From: a virus
Length of the DNA stretch: 21,947 bases
Reading direction: 5' to 3' (one strand)
Virus record (IMG/VR): IMGVR_UViG_3300012012_000575
Coordinates: 1 to 21,947 of that record
Each line of letters opens with the position of its first letter. The first letter of the stretch is position 1. Shown here piece after piece: positions 1-21,947 of the stretch. The position numbers and the translations under genes were made by a program. The notes under the pieces are model-generated. The model saw only the letters and a program-made list of their open reading frames with translations. It made no database searches and was not told the DNA's origin.

Positions 1-377
1 CTAAAATATTATTTAGTACAATTGAAAAATCTGTACCTGATAAAGATTTACAAGCTAAATTAAAAGCTGATTTACAAACACAGTTATTACAATCTAATAC
101 ACAAGAATTACAAGCTGCTGCTAAAATTATAGAAGCTGAAGCTAAAGCAGGTTGGTTTGCATCATCATGGAGACCATTACTTATGTATGTACTTATATTT
201 ATTCTAGTATGGAATTATATATTTGGTCCAATAGTTAAGTTTTTCTTTGGAGCAGCTATTACTATTGATCTTCCAGGTGACGTTTGGACTTTACTCCAAA
301 TAGGTTTAGGAGGTTATGTTGTAGGACGATCAGCTGAATCAGTTGCTAGAACTATGGCAAATAAACCTAAAGAATAA
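1..377 (+). CDS. 3TM-type phage holin, 5' end cut by window start
   Basis: The frame is open from base 3 with no stop before 375-377, so the gene begins upstream of the window. An ATG at 183 would give only 64 residues and would discard a helical segment rich in Ala, Gln and Lys that reads smoothly into the hydrophobic part, so I treat it as internal. The visible protein has an amphipathic helix, then the sequence GWFASSWRPLL, a membrane segment starting LMYVLIFILVW, a second hydrophobic stretch around FGPIVKFFFGAAITI, and a last one around LLQIGLGGYVVGRSAE. This pattern matches the GTA_holin_3TM family (holins of gene transfer agents and many marine phages). The expected role is timed permeabilisation of the inner membrane at lysis. 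The next gene starts 2 nt after the stop. Confidence 0.75.
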   Translation, partial: KILFSTIEKSVPDKDLQAKLKADLQTQLLQSNTQELQAAAKIIEAEAKAGWFASSWRPLLMYVLIFILVWNYIFGPIVKFFFGAAITIDLPGDVWTLLQIGLGGYVVGRSAESVARTMANKPKE

Positions 378-379
378 TT

Positions 380-730
380 ATGAGTAGCGAGTTTAAAGTA
401 AGTGATCAAACACAAGTATCTTTACCTATTAAAAATATAGTAGCTATTGTATCTGCTATCGTTGTAGCGGTATGGACTTATTTTGGAATTGTTGAAAGAT
501 TAAATAGAATTGAAACTAATGAAAAGTTAATGTCACAAGACTTACTTAAAAAAGCTGAACAAACTCCTAAGAACCAGGAGATGTATATGTTGATTGAGTA
601 TCAAGCTAAATCAATTGATAAACATTCTAAACAATTAGAAGAAAATGTGCACACTAAAGTTCTTATAGCTCAATTAGAAAAAAAAGTTGATAAACTAGAA
701 AAAGAATTAGATTCATTACGAGGTAAGTAA
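380..730 (+). CDS. Membrane-anchored coiled-coil protein, possible spanin-like lysis factor
   Basis: The 116-residue product has a short charged N-terminus, one membrane segment at about residues 18-38 (NIVAIVSAIVVAVWTYFGIV), then about 75 residues of polar, Lys/Glu/Leu-rich helix, including LIAQLEKKVDKLEKELDSL, typical of a coiled coil. An N-terminal anchor with an outward coiled coil is the topology of an inner-membrane spanin, and it lies directly after the holin (2-nt gap), so a lysis role is a reasonable inference. Many marine phages carry a similar small protein after the holin without assigned function, and no outer-membrane lipoprotein partner is visible here. Its stop overlaps the next start (TAATG). 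The gene is real; the function is uncertain. Confidence 0.65.
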   Translation: MSSEFKVSDQTQVSLPIKNIVAIVSAIVVAVWTYFGIVERLNRIETNEKLMSQDLLKKAEQTPKNQEMYMLIEYQAKSIDKHSKQLEENVHTKVLIAQLEKKVDKLEKELDSLRGK

Positions 731-3414: not shown

Positions 3415-4215
3415 ATGGCTGAAGTAAAACAAGTAGTAAAGAAACCAGCAAGTAATGGATCTCTAGTAGGTAACATTAATGCTGATTTAATTCTGAAAAA
3501 TGCCGGTAAAGGATTACAGAATGTCACTAACGATGATATTACAATTCCTAGACTAGCTATAGTTCAGTCAGGTTCACCTCAAAGAAAGAAAAAAGATGAA
3601 AAGTATATTGAGGGAGCTGAAGAAGGTATGATTTTTAATACTGTTACTAATACTGTATATGGTAATACTATTGAAGTTATTCCTTGTGGATATAGAAAAA
3701 CCTATGTAGAGTGGGTACCTAGAGAAGATGGTGGCGGATTAGTAGCAGTTCATGATATGAAACCTGCTAATACTAAAACTGATCCTAAAACTAGAAAATC
3801 TTTATTAGGTAAAAATCAAATAGTTGATACTGCGGAACATTTTGTGCTTCTTCAAAAAGAAGATGGTACATATGAACCTGCTGTATTAAATATGACTTCT
3901 AGTAATCTTTCAGTTTCAAGAAAGTGGAATACACTTCTTAAAATGAAAAAGATTAATGTTAAAGGTCAAACTATTGATCCACCTAGTTTTCTATATAAAT
4001 TTAATCTTTCTACTGTTCAAGCTGAGAATGACTTGGGTAGTTGGTTTAAATATAAAATAGAAGAAATAGGTCAAATTGATAGTAAAGATGTATTTAGTCA
4101 AGCTGAAGGTCTAGCTGAATCAGTGGACAAAGGCAAAGTTAAAGCATCTGAACCTGTAGAAGTTGATCAACCTGTAACTGATGATTCTGACGATAACGAA
4201 GAAGCACCTTTTTAA
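3415..4215 (+). CDS. Probable single-stranded DNA-binding protein with acidic C-terminal tail
   Basis: The 266-residue protein has a flexible Lys-rich N-terminus, a central domain containing NDDITIPRLAIVQSGSP, FNTVTNTVYGNTIEVIPCGY and KTYVEWVPREDGGG, and an unstructured C-terminus ending DDSDDNEEAPF. An acidic tail closing on an aromatic residue is characteristic of phage and bacterial ssDNA-binding proteins (T7 gp2.5, SSB), where it recruits replication partners. The gene lies directly before the primase (3-nt gap), which supports the assignment. The central domain belongs to a phage family usually annotated as hypothetical, so the SSB call rests on the tail and context, not on a recognised OB-fold signature. 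A ribosome-binding site, AAAGGAG, sits just inside the upstream gene's 3' end. Confidence 0.5.
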   Translation: MAEVKQVVKKPASNGSLVGNINADLILKNAGKGLQNVTNDDITIPRLAIVQSGSPQRKKKDEKYIEGAEEGMIFNTVTNTVYGNTIEVIPCGYRKTYVEWVPREDGGGLVAVHDMKPANTKTDPKTRKSLLGKNQIVDTAEHFVLLQKEDGTYEPAVLNMTSSNLSVSRKWNTLLKMKKINVKGQTIDPPSFLYKFNLSTVQAENDLGSWFKYKIEEIGQIDSKDVFSQAEGLAESVDKGKVKASEPVEVDQPVTDDSDDNEEAPF

Positions 4216-12527: not shown

Positions 12528-14347
12528 AAAAATCAAATATTATATCTATTGACACTGAAACATATGATCCTAATCTTAAATCTTTAGGACCAGGTGGTTT
12601 TAGAAAAGATGGTAAATTAGTTGGTATATCTATAGCCACAGATAGTGGTTATAATGAATATTTTCCAATTGCACACGAAGGTGGAGGAAATCTTAATAAC
12701 GATCAAGTCGTTGATTTTATTGACAAATTACTTAAATTAAAGAAAAAGCTCGTATTTGCTAATGCTTTATATGACATGGAGTGGCTAAATTCACACGATT
12801 CAAGATTGGCCTTTACGAAGCACCATTCTATATATGATATACAAGCTATAGAGCACCTATTAGACGAAAACAAGCTTAAATACTCTCTTGAATCTTTAAG
12901 TCAATACTATTTAAAAAAATCTAAATATGAAGCTGAATTAGAACAAGCTATACAATTTAACTTTGGTAAAAAAGCTAAAGTTAAAGAAAATTTATGGAAG
13001 TTACATGCAAATAGTGTAAGAGAATATGCTAAAGAAGATGCTTTACTTACACTTCAAATATTTCAAAAACAATTACCTAGAATAAAGACTGAAGACGTAG
13101 AGGATATAGTTAATTTTGAAATGAGATTAATACCTTGTCTTTTTGAAATAAGAAAACGTGGAGTAAGAATTGATCTTAAAAAAGCAGAGAAACTTTATTA
13201 TGATTTAGAAAAAAAACAACACTTACTTCAAGATCAGCTAAATAAAGTAGGAGGACATGATGTAAATATTTGGGCAAATGCATCATTAAAACAAGCATAT
13301 GATAAGAATGAAATTAAATATAATTTTACAGAAAAAGGAACTGCATCTTTCACTCAAGATTGGCTTGAGCAGCAAAATGATGGAATATCTAAAACTATTT
13401 TAGATATTAGAAAATTGGATAAAATTAGAAATACTTTTATAAAGAATATGATTTTAGAGAAAGCTGTAGGAGGTCGTATTCATTGTCAATTTAATTCTAT
13501 GGGAACTGTAACAGGTAGATTTAGTTCTAGTAATCCTAATCTACAACAAGTACCTGCTAGAGACCCTGAGCTTGGGCCGTTGATCAGAAGTTTATTTATT
13601 CCAGAAGAAAATCAAGACTGGTATTGCGCTGACTATTCTCAACAGGAACCTAGAGTATTAGTTCATTACGCTGTTATTAAAAATATGGAATCTGCTAAAA
13701 AAGTTCAAGAAGAATTTTTAACTAATGATCAAACTGACTTTCACGATATGGTTGCAAAAATGGCTAGTATCGAAAGAAAACAAGCTAAGACTATTAATTT
13801 AGGATTATTTTATGGAATGGGTAATAAAAAATTAGCTAGGGAGTTAGGATTAGATGATGATTCAGCTTATGAATTATTTAATAAGTATCATACTAAAGTT
13901 CCTTTTGTTAAAGAGTTATCTAAACAAGTATCTCATGTTGCAAGTACAAGAGGTTATATTAAAACTTTATTAGGAAGAAAAAGAAGATTTGATAAGTGGG
14001 AACCTAAAGATAGTTATGGTAATACAGCTTATTCAAAAGCAGAAGCTATGGAAAGATATCCTGATAGTGAATTAAAAAGAGCTTATACTCATACAGCTTT
14101 AAATGCTTTAATACAAGGTTCATCTGCTGATATTACTAAAGCAGCAATGCTTAAAATATATGAATCAGGTATTACAGATGAAATAGATATTAAATTAACT
14201 ATACACGATGAACTTGATTTCTCAGTTGATAAATCTAAACAAAAATGTTTTGAAGAAGCTATACAAATAATGAAAAACTGTGTAGATATTAAAGTGCCTC
14301 TAAAAATTGATGTAGAGAAAGGAGATAGTTGGGGCACTGCTAAATAA
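12506..14347 (+). CDS. polA: Family A DNA polymerase with 3'-5' proofreading domain (Leu at 762-equivalent)
   Basis: The 613-residue enzyme has a proofreading domain at the N-terminus (ISIDTETYD with Asp16/Glu18; FANALYDMEWL; REYAKEDALLTLQIF) and a polymerase domain: TGRFSSSNPNLQQVP, motif A CADYSQQEPRVLVH (Asp376), motif B RKQAKTINLGLFYG (Arg424, Lys428, Tyr436) and motif C TIHDELDFSV (Asp568, Glu569). There is no 5'-3' exonuclease domain. At the position equivalent to E. coli Phe762 it has Leu432; Leu762 types are a recognised group among marine viral PolA. It is the likely replicative polymerase and would have to accept any modified dCTP made by the adjacent genes. It overlaps the deaminase by 22 nt and the dehydrogenase by TAATG. 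Confidence 0.95.
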   Translation: MFKFSELEKSNIISIDTETYDPNLKSLGPGGFRKDGKLVGISIATDSGYNEYFPIAHEGGGNLNNDQVVDFIDKLLKLKKKLVFANALYDMEWLNSHDSRLAFTKHHSIYDIQAIEHLLDENKLKYSLESLSQYYLKKSKYEAELEQAIQFNFGKKAKVKENLWKLHANSVREYAKEDALLTLQIFQKQLPRIKTEDVEDIVNFEMRLIPCLFEIRKRGVRIDLKKAEKLYYDLEKKQHLLQDQLNKVGGHDVNIWANASLKQAYDKNEIKYNFTEKGTASFTQDWLEQQNDGISKTILDIRKLDKIRNTFIKNMILEKAVGGRIHCQFNSMGTVTGRFSSSNPNLQQVPARDPELGPLIRSLFIPEENQDWYCADYSQQEPRVLVHYAVIKNMESAKKVQEEFLTNDQTDFHDMVAKMASIERKQAKTINLGLFYGMGNKKLARELGLDDDSAYELFNKYHTKVPFVKELSKQVSHVASTRGYIKTLLGRKRRFDKWEPKDSYGNTAYSKAEAMERYPDSELKRAYTHTALNALIQGSSADITKAAMLKIYESGITDEIDIKLTIHDELDFSVDKSKQKCFEEAIQIMKNCVDIKVPLKIDVEKGDSWGTAK

Positions 14348-15618
14348 TGAATATCGGATTTTTAGGATTAGGAAAATTAGGACTTCCAGTAGCTCTTGCT
14401 ATAGAAGATAAAGGACATAACGTTTGCGGAACGGATATTAGTCCAATTACATTAAAAGGAATAAGAACAAAAACCCTCCATTATAAAGAAGAAGGTGCTC
14501 AAGAACTATTAAATAAATCGAATATTCAAATAAAAAACATTAGCGATATAGTCAAAGATTGTGATATAATTTTTGTCCCTATTCAAACTCCACATGAAGA
14601 AAAATACGAAGGAATTACAAGAATACCTAAAGAAAGAGCTGATTTTAATTACGAACATTTAAGAAATGGATTAAGAAATTTAGCTATAGAAGCTATGTTT
14701 CATAAAAAAGAAATTGTTGTAATTATAATATCGACTGTTCTCCCGGGAACTATTCGTAGAGAGATAATGCCTGTATTAAATAATTATATTAAACTTTGTT
14801 ATAATCCTTTCTTTATAGCAATGGGTACTACTATTCAAGATTTTTTAAATAGTGAAATTATATTATTTGGAGTTGAAAATGAAGAAGCAGCAAAAAAAGC
14901 TGAAGAATTTTATAAAACAATTAATGATAAACCTTTTTTTAAAACTACATTAGAAAATGCTGAATTAATAAAAGTAGTTTATAATACTTTTATTTCAACT
15001 AAAATTTCTATGATTAATACAGTTATGGAAACATGTCATTATCTTCCTAACACTAATGTAGATGAAGTATCTAAAGCTCTTTCACTTTGTACAAATAGAA
15101 TTGTAAGTAATAAATATTTACAAGGAGGAATGGGAGACGGAGGTGGTTGTCACCCTAGAGATAATATAGCTCTATCGTATCTTGCAAATAAATTAGATTT
15201 ATCATTTAATTGGTATGATATGATTATGAAACAACGTGAACATCAAACTGAATGGTTAGCAAGATTAATTATACAAAATAGAAATGGATTAGAAATAAAT
15301 ATTTTAGGTAAATCTTTTAAACCTGAAACTACTTTAACTTTAGGAAGTCCTTCATTACTTCTTAAAACTATTTTAGAAGAATATGGTATTACAATAAAAA
15401 TTTGGGATCCATACGTTGATGGCAATATAGAAAAAACAGCAAAAGAATATGGGTGGAATGATCGAGCACAATTATTTTTTATAGGAACTAAACATGAAGC
15501 TTTTCATCATTTTTATTTTCATAAAGATTCAGTAATCATTGATCCATTTAGGTACTTAAATCTTAAAGATGATGTTAAATATATACCAATAGGAATATGC
15601 AACCAAAAGATAGAATAG
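14347..15618 (+). CDS. UDP-glucose/GDP-mannose dehydrogenase family protein with divergent active site
   Basis: The 423-residue protein has an N-terminal Rossmann domain IGFLGLGKLGLPVA (GxGxxG at Gly7-Gly12, Asp30 for NAD), TVLPGTIR, the central domain with ENAELIKVVYNTF (Lys209, Asn213) and STKISMIN, the nucleophile region GDGGGCHPRDN (Cys268), and a C-terminal UDP-binding domain (LGKSFKPET). These define nucleotide-sugar 6-dehydrogenases, which oxidise UDP-glucose or a similar sugar to the uronic acid with two NAD+. Unusual points: the NPEFLxEG segment is NPFFIAMG (residues 153-160), so both usual glutamates are Phe155 and Met159, and the C-terminal TDDxRxSP motif is TTLTLGSP. Substrate or product may therefore differ. 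It sits between polA (TAATG) and nadE (22-nt overlap), a context of DNA synthesis and not of capsule synthesis. Confidence 0.82.
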   Translation: MNIGFLGLGKLGLPVALAIEDKGHNVCGTDISPITLKGIRTKTLHYKEEGAQELLNKSNIQIKNISDIVKDCDIIFVPIQTPHEEKYEGITRIPKERADFNYEHLRNGLRNLAIEAMFHKKEIVVIIISTVLPGTIRREIMPVLNNYIKLCYNPFFIAMGTTIQDFLNSEIILFGVENEEAAKKAEEFYKTINDKPFFKTTLENAELIKVVYNTFISTKISMINTVMETCHYLPNTNVDEVSKALSLCTNRIVSNKYLQGGMGDGGGCHPRDNIALSYLANKLDLSFNWYDMIMKQREHQTEWLARLIIQNRNGLEINILGKSFKPETTLTLGSPSLLLKTILEEYGITIKIWDPYVDGNIEKTAKEYGWNDRAQLFFIGTKHEAFHHFYFHKDSVIIDPFRYLNLKDDVKYIPIGICNQKIE

Positions 15619-16367
15619 AACATATAAAAAATTGGATTTTTAATTATGTAACTGAAATGCCTAATCCAGCTAATTGTTTAGTTGTAGGTATATCAGGCGG
15701 AATTGATTCATCTGTAGTAAGTACCATATCAGCAATGACTGGACTTAAAACTTTACTTGTTTGTATGCCAATACATCAAAGACCTGAACAACATGATTTA
15801 TCTATAGCACATAAAAATTGGCTTACTAATAAATTTAAAAATGCTTATGGAGTTGAAGTTGATTTAACTTATACTTTTAATTCTTTTGAAAATACTTTAA
15901 TTGATAGAAAATTTACATCTCAACTAGGATTAGCTAATTCAAGAGCTAGATTAAGAATGATGTGTTTATATCAAATAGCTTCTTCTTGTAACGGAATAGT
16001 AGTTGGAACTGGAAATAAAATAGAAGATTTTGGTGTAGGATTCTTTACTAAATATGGAGACGGCGGAGTAGATGTATCTCCAATTGGTGATTGTTTAAAA
16101 ACAGATGTATGGAAAATGGGTAAAGAGTTAGGAATATTAGAGGATATTATTATGGCAGATCCAACTGATGGGTTATGGTCAGATGGCAGAACTGACGTTG
16201 ATCAACTAGGAATGAGCTATAAAGAATTAGAAATAGCTATGCAAGATCCTTCTGATAAGAATTATACTAAATATTTAGAACTTAGAATTAAGAATTTACA
16301 TAAGATGAAGTCAATCCCTGTATGTAAATTTGATGGAAAAACTACTCTGGAAACAGATAAGAAATAA
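15597..16367 (+). CDS. nadE: NAD+ synthetase (ammonia-dependent NadE)
   Basis: The 256-residue protein matches NadE: PP-loop GISGGIDSSVVS (SGGIDSS at residues 33-39) for ATP, LANSRARLRMMCLYQIA, VVGTGNKIEDFGVGFFTKYG, VDVSPIGDCLKTDVWKMGKELGI and DPTDGLWSDGRTDVDQLGMSY, the deamido-NAD-binding segments. The absence of an N-terminal nitrilase domain and the length (family about 275) indicate the ammonia-using form. It converts nicotinic acid adenine dinucleotide to NAD+. It overlaps the NAD-dependent sugar dehydrogenase by 22 nt, so the two are probably co-translated; supply of NAD+ for that enzyme, or restoring NAD+ pools attacked by host defences, are two possible reasons. Neither is shown by sequence. 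Its 3' end overlaps the nuclease gene. Confidence 0.92.
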   Translation: MQPKDRIEHIKNWIFNYVTEMPNPANCLVVGISGGIDSSVVSTISAMTGLKTLLVCMPIHQRPEQHDLSIAHKNWLTNKFKNAYGVEVDLTYTFNSFENTLIDRKFTSQLGLANSRARLRMMCLYQIASSCNGIVVGTGNKIEDFGVGFFTKYGDGGVDVSPIGDCLKTDVWKMGKELGILEDIIMADPTDGLWSDGRTDVDQLGMSYKELEIAMQDPSDKNYTKYLELRIKNLHKMKSIPVCKFDGKTTLETDKK

Positions 16368-18169: not shown

Positions 18170-18763
18170 ATGAAAAAAAGCTCATTTAAAGCTCTTTATT
18201 CACACGGTTTAGTCTATATCCATATACTACTATGGCTGACTATTTTCATTTATTTAAACTTTTCAGCAACTCTAAAAGAACCCGTCTTTAAGTATAATAA
18301 CAATAGAGAATTTGTTGTTGATCTTCAAAGATGTATAGATTATCATCATCAATATATTCCTAAAAATCAAAGAATACCTGACGAAATGATAGTAGCTCAG
18401 GCGATAGTAGAAAGTGATTATGGTACAAGTCGATTTGCTATAGAAGCTAATAATCTTTTTGGAATTAGAACATATAAGAAAGAAGAAAAGCAATTAAAAC
18501 CACTTCATAGACCTAATGCTAATTTTGGTGTAAAAGTATTTAAAAGTAAATGTGATAGTGTAAGATTTTATATGATCATGATGAACAATCACCATGCTTA
18601 TCAATCATTTAGAGCTTTACGAGACAATGGAGTCAAAGAGCCGTTGATCCTGATTACCAAATTATATAATTTCAGTGAGAACAAGATGTATTATTATTTA
18701 TTAAGAGAAGTTATTATTAATTTAAGAAAGGATAACAATGAAAGTAAAAGTAATAAAACGTGA
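18170..18763 (+). CDS. Bax-like glucosaminidase endolysin with N-terminal membrane anchor
   Basis: The 197-residue protein has a basic N-terminus, a hydrophobic segment at about residues 14-31 (LVYIHILLWLTIFIYLNF) that can act as a signal or signal anchor, and a catalytic domain DEMIVAQAIVESDYGTSRFA followed by ANNLFGI, the pattern of the Bax/glucosaminidase superfamily with likely catalytic Glu81. It should cleave the glycan strands of peptidoglycan once outside the inner membrane, with the anchor giving Sec-dependent, possibly SAR-type export. It lies about 18 kb from the holin at the left edge, so the lysis genes in this window are not adjacent. An AT-rich 43-nt gap before it lacks a clear ribosome-binding site. 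The 3' end overlaps the next gene by 26 nt. Confidence 0.75.
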   Translation: MKKSSFKALYSHGLVYIHILLWLTIFIYLNFSATLKEPVFKYNNNREFVVDLQRCIDYHHQYIPKNQRIPDEMIVAQAIVESDYGTSRFAIEANNLFGIRTYKKEEKQLKPLHRPNANFGVKVFKSKCDSVRFYMIMMNNHHAYQSFRALRDNGVKEPLILITKLYNFSENKMYYYLLREVIINLRKDNNESKSNKT

Positions 18764-20588: not shown

Positions 20589-20763
20589 TTGGAAAATATA
20601 TCATAAGACTAAAGATGAATTAAGAATTGCTTTAGAAAATCATCTAAAGTCTATTGATTTAGTTTTTATCTATGATAATACAAATAACGATGGAGACTAC
20701 GAAGCTCATATGGAATCTTTATGTGTCTCTGAAATGCATAAAATATTAAGGACTTATGAATAA
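20566..20763 (+). CDS. Small hypothetical protein
   Basis: The 65-residue protein begins MKMEKPDNWKIYHKTKDELR; a second ATG at 20572 is equally possible. The rest includes ENHLKSIDLVFIYDNTNND and a C-terminal helix. It is soluble, with no known family. It overlaps the upstream gene by up to 23 nt and the downstream gene by 8 nt, consistent with the coupled run. Confidence 0.55.
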   Translation: MKMEKPDNWKIYHKTKDELRIALENHLKSIDLVFIYDNTNNDGDYEAHMESLCVSEMHKILRTYE

Positions 20764-20986
20764 AAATAAATACATGTTAATCTACTGGTGGGGTTATAAT
20801 AACAACAGTAATGATAATAAACCTTTTATAGAGTGGATTGAAAAAAATGCTGAAGAACACTTTACAGAAGATAATGGATTTGATATTGATGATATAGAAA
20901 ACATAAAAGAGTTGTCGCCAGGAGATGACCATGAAATATGGGGAGCTGCTAGCACAACTAAACTTACAATATATTGTTACGCATGA
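20756..20986 (+). CDS. Small acidic hypothetical protein
   Basis: The 76-residue protein begins MNKNKYMLIYWWGYNNNSND and continues with an acidic region (AEEHFTEDNGFDIDDIENIK) and a closing strand KLTIYCYA. No family is recognised. It overlaps the preceding gene by 8 nt, and its stop is part of an ATGA starting the first of four tiny membrane ORFs. Function unknown. Confidence 0.6.
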   Translation: MNKNKYMLIYWWGYNNNSNDNKPFIEWIEKNAEEHFTEDNGFDIDDIENIKELSPGDDHEIWGAASTTKLTIYCYA

Positions 20987-21078
20987 TCTGGTTTATACTC
21001 GGTACAATTTTAGGAATATGGCTCGGCTGGAAATATGAACGTGTTGTAAATGATATTATAGAGAGTTATTTTAAATGA
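20983..21078 (+). CDS. Membrane micro-ORF 1 (31 residues)
   Basis: The ORF encodes MIWFILGTILGIWLGWKYER followed by a charged tail VVNDIIESYFK. Residues 1-16 form a single hydrophobic segment, with the charged part after it, like a small inner-membrane peptide. It is linked by ATGA overlaps to the gene before and the micro-ORF after. Too short for family recognition; the evidence is the tight chain and the hydrophobic design shared with its three followers. Confidence 0.5.
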   Translation: MIWFILGTILGIWLGWKYERVVNDIIESYFK

Positions 21079-21146
21079 TAATCGGTTTAGTAATTATATT
21101 TATTTTAGTTATATTATTAATGTGGACACTGATGTTGTACCCATGA
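21075..21146 (+). CDS. Membrane micro-ORF 2 (23 residues)
   Basis: The ORF encodes MIIGLVIIFILVILLMWTLM plus LYP: essentially one transmembrane helix and nothing else. Both ends lie in ATGA overlaps. A peptide of this length could arise by chance in AT-rich DNA, so the support comes from its position between two similarly built ORFs. Confidence 0.4.
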   Translation: MIIGLVIIFILVILLMWTLMLYP

Positions 21147-21232
21147 TTGAATTATTGAGAGAATTATATTTATATGAAATTATAATTATCATACTTCTAG
21201 GATACGTTTGTCTTTTACTCATGACTAAATGA
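21143..21232 (+). CDS. Membrane micro-ORF 3 (29 residues)
   Basis: The ORF encodes MIELLRELYLYEIIIIILLG followed by YVCLLLMTK: a short amphipathic start with charges, then a hydrophobic segment at about residues 12-27. It is joined by ATGA overlaps to micro-ORFs 2 and 4. Function unknown; confidence depends on the chain as a whole. Confidence 0.4.
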   Translation: MIELLRELYLYEIIIIILLGYVCLLLMTK

Positions 21233-21309
21233 AACGTGATCTTTATTTAGACGCAGCATTTGTTGTTATATTAATCGGACTTATTTTGGTATTCGTTATA
21301 CTTATTTAA
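21229..21309 (+). CDS. Membrane micro-ORF 4 (26 residues)
   Basis: The ORF encodes MKRDLYLDAAFVVILIGLIL and ends VFVILI: a positively charged N-terminus, then one hydrophobic helix reaching the stop TAA at 21307-21309. The start is in an ATGA overlap with micro-ORF 3. The same frame stays open after the stop up to 21501, which is noted separately. Confidence 0.4.
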   Translation: MKRDLYLDAAFVVILIGLILVFVILI

Positions 21310-21411
21310 AAATATTATATTTATATTATAAGTTACGAATATAAATGGGTACACGAATATAATATAAAAAAATTTAAAAATAAAATTATACCACTAAAAG
21401 CTATTCCGTTT

Positions 21412-21501
21412 ATGTGTAATCATATGCCTGTAGTTCATAAAGGTAAATATAAAGGTTGTATAGGAATAGTAGGTCTAATTCTTTGTATAGTTAAAAAATG
21501 A
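21412..21501 (+). CDS. Uncertain small ORF before the last gene (29 residues from first ATG)
   Basis: The frame is open from 21310 to the TGA at 21499-21501, which overlaps the next ATG (ATGA) exactly as elsewhere in this operon. The first ATG at 21412 gives MCNHMPVVHKGKYKGCIGIV and a hydrophobic end; a second ATG is at 21424. No ribosome-binding site is seen. The upstream open part reads YEYKWVHEYNIKKFKNKIIP, which looks coding, so the true start may be a non-ATG codon further left. The region 21310-21411 holds no other gene that I can see. Confidence 0.3.
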   Translation: MCNHMPVVHKGKYKGCIGIVGLILCIVKK

Positions 21502-21947
21502 ATATCTTTTATTTAGACGAAAATCCTAAGAAATGCGCAGAATATCATTGCGATAAACACGTAGTCAAGATGATTATCGAATATGCGCAATTACTCTCTA
21601 CAGCCCACCGGCTTTGTGATGGAATAGAGAGCCGTGGATCAAGTAGATCAGGTAAAAGACAAGTAAGAGTATGGAAGCTTGACGATTCACGTGAAAATAG
21701 CTTGTATTTAGCCAGTCATATCAATCACCCAAGTAATATATGGACACGTTCTAGTGTAGAGAATTATCAATGGTTATGGCAATTATGGTATAATCTATGT
21801 AAAGAATACGAAGAAAGATATAATAGAACTCATGCAACATGGATCAAGTTAGCTACTCATTTATCTATTCCACCTCATAATATTCCCGAGATAAGAGCAA
21901 CTCCTATACCATTATGTATGCCTGACGAATATAAGACCGAGGATCCA
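21498..21947 (+). CDS. Conserved phage protein, 3' end cut by window end
   Basis: The first 150 residues are present: MNIFYLDENPKKCAEYHCDK, HVVKMIIEYAQLLSTAHRL, then VWKLDDSREN, HINHPSNIWTRSSVENYQWL, YEERYNRTHATWIKLA and a Pro-rich TPIPLCMPDEYK before the window ends. I recognise the CDKHVVKMI...AQLLSTAH and NHPS.IW.R.S..NY.WL pattern from cyanophages and other marine phages, where it is generally an unassigned conserved protein. Several conserved His, Asp and Cys residues suggest an enzyme or metal site. It begins in an ATGA with the ORF before it. Base use seems slightly richer in G/C than the genes to its left. Confidence 0.75.
   Translation, partial: MNIFYLDENPKKCAEYHCDKHVVKMIIEYAQLLSTAHRLCDGIESRGSSRSGKRQVRVWKLDDSRENSLYLASHINHPSNIWTRSSVENYQWLWQLWYNLCKEYEERYNRTHATWIKLATHLSIPPHNIPEIRATPIPLCMPDEYKTEDP

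Follow-up and report, generated by a model that had tools for sequence, protein, structure and literature searches.

A chain of four ATGA-joined, putative membrane micro-genes, some gained or lost as units, in a pelagiphage-like virus

Near the end of the small-gene cluster of a marine, pelagiphage-like virus, four consecutive ORFs of 23 to 31 codons are joined stop to start by ATGA, and among related phages individual units are gained or lost exactly at these joints. We analyzed the whole 21.9-kb IMG/VR virus record that carries them (GC 28.5%; hereafter the window). The reading we favor, at a probability of about 55%, is that the array encodes modular, translationally coupled and exchangeable accessory peptides of the inner membrane, which would act on the host envelope in takeover or exclusion. 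Coding, for ORF1 and ORF3, and modularity of the array are established or strongly supported, and the four ORFs are probably genuine accessory genes overlooked by annotation. As judged from sequence matches, ORF1 is conserved and belongs to a wider family whose members overlap the ends of several unrelated genes.

An earlier sequence-only reading had picked out the four ORFs (31, 23, 29 and 26 codons; 20983-21309) and their exact ATGA joints, and we verified both coordinates and joints (Table 1). All four junctions, including that between the upstream 76-aa gene and ORF1, are ATGA. The array had also been described as continuing the overlap pattern of the preceding genes; of 36 neighboring pairs in our gene list for the window, 10 overlap by −4, so that ATGA is common in this phage without being universal. 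Frameshift fusion of ORF1 with ORF2, or of ORF3 with ORF4, was ruled out by an in-frame TAA directly before the ATG of ORF2 and of ORF4.

Table 1. Array ORFs and other features of the window discussed in the text
Feature	Coordinates	Strand	Description
3TM holin (PF11351)	3-377		Pfam match
Lysis-region protein	380-730		Weakly spanin-like
Glucosaminidase endolysin	18170-18763		
76-aa gene, function unassigned	20756-20986	+	Stop overlaps ORF1 start via ATGA
ORF1	20983-21078	+	31 aa, MIWFILGTILGIWLGWKYERVVNDIIESYFK; one hydrophobic helix and a charged amphipathic tail
ORF2	21075-21146	+	23 aa, MIIGLVIIFILVILLMWTLMLYP; almost wholly hydrophobic; optional cassette
ORF3	21143-21232	+	29 aa; charged N-terminus followed by a hydrophobic helix; in 9/9 genomes
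ORF4	21229-21309	+	26 aa, MKRDLYLDAAFVVILIGLILVFVILI; hydrophobic anchor at the C-terminus; optional cassette
57-codon frame after the array	21328-21501	+	In relatives, a gene with an ATG start
phrog_624 "DNA binding protein"	21498-21947	+	Weakly similar to Pyr_excise; continues past the window edge; bounds the variable region on the right

In Markov simulations of matching composition, the frequency of three-ORF ATGA chains (ORFs of at least 20 codons) was 4e-5 to 2e-4 per ATG; four 4-Mb simulations yielded a single four-ORF chain. By chance, a four-ORF ATGA chain occurs at ~1e-5 or less per ATG and is not expected, in line with the earlier remark that four hydrophobic ORFs in perfect register come less easily. 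Chains of at least two such micro-ORFs were absent from the order-3 simulation and, among 100 loci (0.79 Mb), occurred only in the window and eight close relatives; these loci are related or distantly related phages, many fetched as relatives of the window, and so not a random phage sample. ORFs 2-4 are more hydrophobic than random ORFs even of the region's own T-rich composition (P ~1e-4 to 4e-3); ORF1 is only moderately hydrophobic by that measure (P = 0.18), but more so when the 2 kb around it serve as reference (P = 0.02). AlphaFold2 predicted residues 2-30 of ORF1 as a single helix (pLDDT 86.6). Taken together, the hydrophobicity and this one helix prediction suggest that the peptides would insert into the inner membrane.

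The same locus is present in eight IMG/VR contigs, where the 76-aa gene is 88-96% identical and every frame that is present is intact and ATGA-joined. The sequence-only reading had named as telling against its ORFs any relatives whose frames are broken by frameshifts or stops while conservation persists at the RNA level only; none was seen in the window lineage, and the comparison of overlaps and substitutions that it proposed revealed synonymous bias in ORF1 and ORF3. Under a neutral model in which each minor allele is one event and the tree is ignored, so that P values are approximate, ORF1 shows 18 changes, 14 at third positions and 5 nonsynonymous against 12.6 expected (P = 1e-4, pN/pS 0.10); ORF3 shows 40 changes, 23 nonsynonymous against 30.6 expected (P = 0.003, pN/pS 0.40); ORF2 has few changes, one of five being nonsynonymous (P = 0.05, pN/pS 0.06); and ORF4, with four nonsynonymous and one synonymous, has too few for power. 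The nonsynonymous changes in ORF3 are mainly exchanges between hydrophobic residues. These counts point to purifying selection that is strong on ORF1 and moderate on ORF3, and are suggestive of it for ORF2. Real membrane micro-genes, as originally proposed, are supported for ORF1 and ORF3 and likely for ORF2, but ORF4 is unproven at the protein level.

ORF1 and ORF3 occur in all nine genomes (the window and its eight relatives), ORF2 in four (window, L001, L005, L007) and an intact ORF4 in five (window, L005-L008), the other four lacking it. The presence or absence of ORF2 and ORF4 respects the ATGA joints exactly: arrays without ORF2 are shorter by the 68 nt that separate two ATGAT repeats, with ORF1 ATGA-joined to ORF3, and ORF3 ends in TAA rather than TGA where ORF4 is absent. 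In trees built from either flank, some nodes of which are weakly supported, genomes with ORF2 are scattered over both clades, a pattern that calls for several events of gain, loss or recombination. The more distant L018, with a 76-aa gene of 70% identity, is without all four ORFs; in their place, a 93-aa basic protein (RRIPRKPGQPARSKKHSD...) at 3668-3949 is ATGA-joined to the 76-aa gene. Patterns for ORF2, ORF3 and ORF4 matched in the window lineage only.

This gain and loss bears on a rival reading in which ORF4, and perhaps also ORF2, would have no function, being hydrophobic frames of T-rich DNA that persist through linkage. Hydrophobic frames arise easily in AT-rich DNA, ORF4 is without synonymous bias and ORF2 has accumulated few changes. 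However, both are extreme in hydrophobicity even for the region's composition, retain their exact length and their ATGA joints in the genomes that have them, and come and go as whole units, and we consider passive carriage rather unlikely.

Downstream of the array, the 57-codon frame reads ATA AGT where L006 has ATG AAT, so that its start codon is lost or non-standard with the frame still open; the next ATG within it, at 21412, would leave only 29 codons. A leader-peptide role of the array ORFs for the phrog_624 gene that follows was considered and is unlikely, as elsewhere the ORF1 family precedes unrelated genes.

With a degenerate DNA pattern, we found ORF1 homologues of 35-36 residues (MIWFILGTVLGLYLEWKYEIAKYIIESIKIHLNIK and similar) in other contigs. 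We define the family by a motif of the MIWF..G....G....WK.E type in 31-36 residues, which ORF1 carries. Its invariant positions include MIWF, L6, G7, G11, W16, K17 and E19, most of them fixed by the search patterns, whereas agreement over the remaining protein was not. Among the first 13 homologues, 10 overlap by −4 a gene ending IPTTAR (in L105, a DUF7483 tail fibre) and 2 overlap a tail assembly chaperone gene by −1. A looser pattern yielded more copies, some overlapping a 95-aa gene and others, in L139, L141 and L143, a 49-aa gene. Together with the 76-aa gene of the window, these are the genes whose ends the family overlaps, usually by 4 or 1 nt. The family thus occurs in two further phage backgrounds, behind tail-fibre or tail-assembly genes and in T4-like contigs such as L139, whose ribonucleotide reductase is 81% identical to that of Pelagibacter phage Mosig EXVC030M. 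Homologues behind tail genes carry 13 nonsynonymous changes of 36 against 26 expected and are likewise under purifying selection.

One homologue in the tail-fibre context, in L108, is frameshifted after 14 matching codons (18 aa) and may be a pseudogene or an assembly error. No searched contig held two ORF1 copies. Profile searches placed the family in none of HTVC008M, Mosig, HTVC023P and DSL-LC04, and neither tblastn against cultured phages, a weak search with its low-complexity filter on, nor the ORF1 pattern in host genomes gave a match. In L138 and L105, a conserved 39-56-residue amphipathic protein (...YWSKFYADAFEDAK.FWKDYA..VEQFY) lies ~40 nt after the ORF1 homologue and has no Pfam or PHROG match.

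PHROGs gave nothing useful for the four ORFs. Residues 1-18 of ORF1 match positions 9-26 of phrog_4568 (E = 0.0008), which is 18 of 73 profile positions and the hydrophobic stretch only, and the profile also matches in 8 of 14 control genomes. We rejected the assignment; the match is probably generic membrane-helix similarity.

The distribution of the family bears on superinfection exclusion, one of three roles suggested earlier for the array, in which ORF1-type inner-membrane proteins would block the DNA entry or receptor use of a second phage and units would vary as rivals vary. ORF1 homologues are shared by phage types for which competition over SAR11-like hosts is probable, and they often stand directly after tail-fibre or tail-assembly genes; immunity factors sometimes adjoin tail genes, as T5 llp does its receptor-binding gene. 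Yet the window ORF1 sits in the small-gene cluster rather than adjoining tail genes, we detected no lipobox or export signal, and none of the four ORFs matches a described family in Pfam, NCBIfam or PADLOC. Exclusion as the dedicated role of the array is, in our estimation, doubtful.

Lysis, the second suggested role, is disfavored; the original interpretation as a whole is supported in part. Small single-helix membrane proteins can be holin partners, and in L105 and L109 the ORF1 homologues lie a few kb from endolysin and holin, as might suit an antiholin, a pinholin or a factor in lysis timing. The window, however, has complete-looking lysis genes elsewhere, in the form of a holin, a weakly spanin-like protein and an endolysin. 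The array ORFs do not belong to a holin/endolysin cassette: some 2.2 kb separate them from the endolysin and some 20 kb from the holin. ORF2 and ORF4 are also dispensable. We regard a lysis accessory role as improbable. The endolysin, distant from the holin, has a hydrophobic N-terminal segment that is a possible signal anchor.

A similarly low probability attaches to the third suggestion, membrane-depolarizing toxin-like peptides of type I form, for which we found nothing positive at the locus. Peptides of the TisB, Fst and Ibs class are of similar size and single-helix hydrophobicity, but an Rfam search found no antisense RNA family at the locus, promoter-like sites in the region are no more frequent than in shuffles, and we know of no type I locus with four coupled units.

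The host of the window phage is probably of SAR11 type, because the lysis-region protein next to the holin matches almost only Pelagibacter phages (38 of 40 cultured records matched); it has no match in host genomes. The window also encodes a primase, thymidylate synthase and a DNA polymerase A whose closest matches are those of DSL-LC04 and 023Pt_psg01 (44%), followed by pelagiphages HTVC023P and HTVC027P (40-41%). A UDP-glucose/GDP-mannose dehydrogenase-like gene and the NAD synthase gene, at 14347-16367, are possible auxiliary metabolic genes. A closely similar cassette of holin, 115-aa and 70-aa genes is found at 3-942 of the window and at 11933-12913 of L105, in different phage contexts. 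As L105 has the window's holin-region genes, exchange between both phage types is plausible beyond ORF1, and the shared block suggests that lysis genes may move between pelagiphage types.

Returning to the reading of the array as coupled, exchangeable membrane peptides, we considered how it might be translated. The array has, as ATGA, the stop/start overlap (ATGA or TAATG) that marks termination-reinitiation genes, and termination-reinitiation at ATGA pairs is experimentally established in E. coli and Haloferax (PMC6728339, PMC10666635). By analogy, ribosomes ending the 76-aa gene would probably re-initiate at every ATGA, making four single-pass inner-membrane peptides in turn from ORFs that lack a clear ribosome-binding site. 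No Shine-Dalgarno (SD) motif is evident before ORFs 1, 3 and 4, while AAGAAAGGA-like motifs precede many other window genes. Since removal of the SD motif usually lowered reinitiation in reporters (PMC6728339, PMC10666635), coupling without one may be weak. Most likely, the peptides would reside in the inner membrane of the host and there bind its membrane proteins or disturb them, with host takeover or exclusion of competing phages as the outcome rather than lysis.

All units begin with ATGA, extended to ATGAT in several, so units could be swapped without breaking neighbors; recombination between joints may be the route by which they are added or removed. More tentatively, the joints may form a natural cassette system through which membrane micro-genes move among unrelated pelagiphages and accumulate as envelope-effector arrays. 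A micro-gene would then plug in behind any expressed gene and take its translation from it, without a promoter or ribosome-binding site of its own.

Few entities in the sea are as abundant as SAR11 and its phages, and annotation rarely includes genes below ~35 codons. A conserved membrane protein of 31-36 residues in several phage types that probably infect one host group points to a shared host target that has gone unstudied, and exact gain and loss of units at ATGA suggests a simple way to plug in new genes, with the neighbor supplying translation. We found no published description of such an exchanged micro-gene array, and no directly relevant publication on phage small-gene catalogues, in a literature coverage that was incomplete.

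Among known systems, the ATGA termination-reinitiation pairs of Huber et al. (2019, PMC6728339; 2023, PMC10666635) share the exact, co-directed −4 overlaps, here four in a row, but the array differs in having units of 23-31 codons only, in being without clear SD motifs and in that two units are individually dispensable. Obligate heteromeric complexes have been associated with ATGA pairs (PMC6728339, PMC10666635); because two units are individually dispensable, such a complex of the array peptides is unlikely. Phages of the HTVC023P and DSL-LC04 type likewise carry, from the DNA polymerase to the terminase small subunit, runs of small hypothetical genes that often overlap, but their clusters contain no annotated genes this small and no detected ORF1 family or micro-ORF chain. 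With phrog_4568, whose function is unassigned, ORF1 shares a hydrophobic stretch and not the whole profile. Phage mosaicism at gene boundaries is similar in that whole genes are gained or lost at borders among related phages; unlike in ordinary mosaicism, the border in the array is a start/stop overlap of 4-5 nt that is itself the shared sequence, so that neighbors still overlap after exchange. ATGA coupling is already known, as are gene-border mosaicism and small membrane proteins of phages; what appears new is a run of four membrane micro-genes that are exchanged unit by unit at ATGA, one of them common to several phage types.
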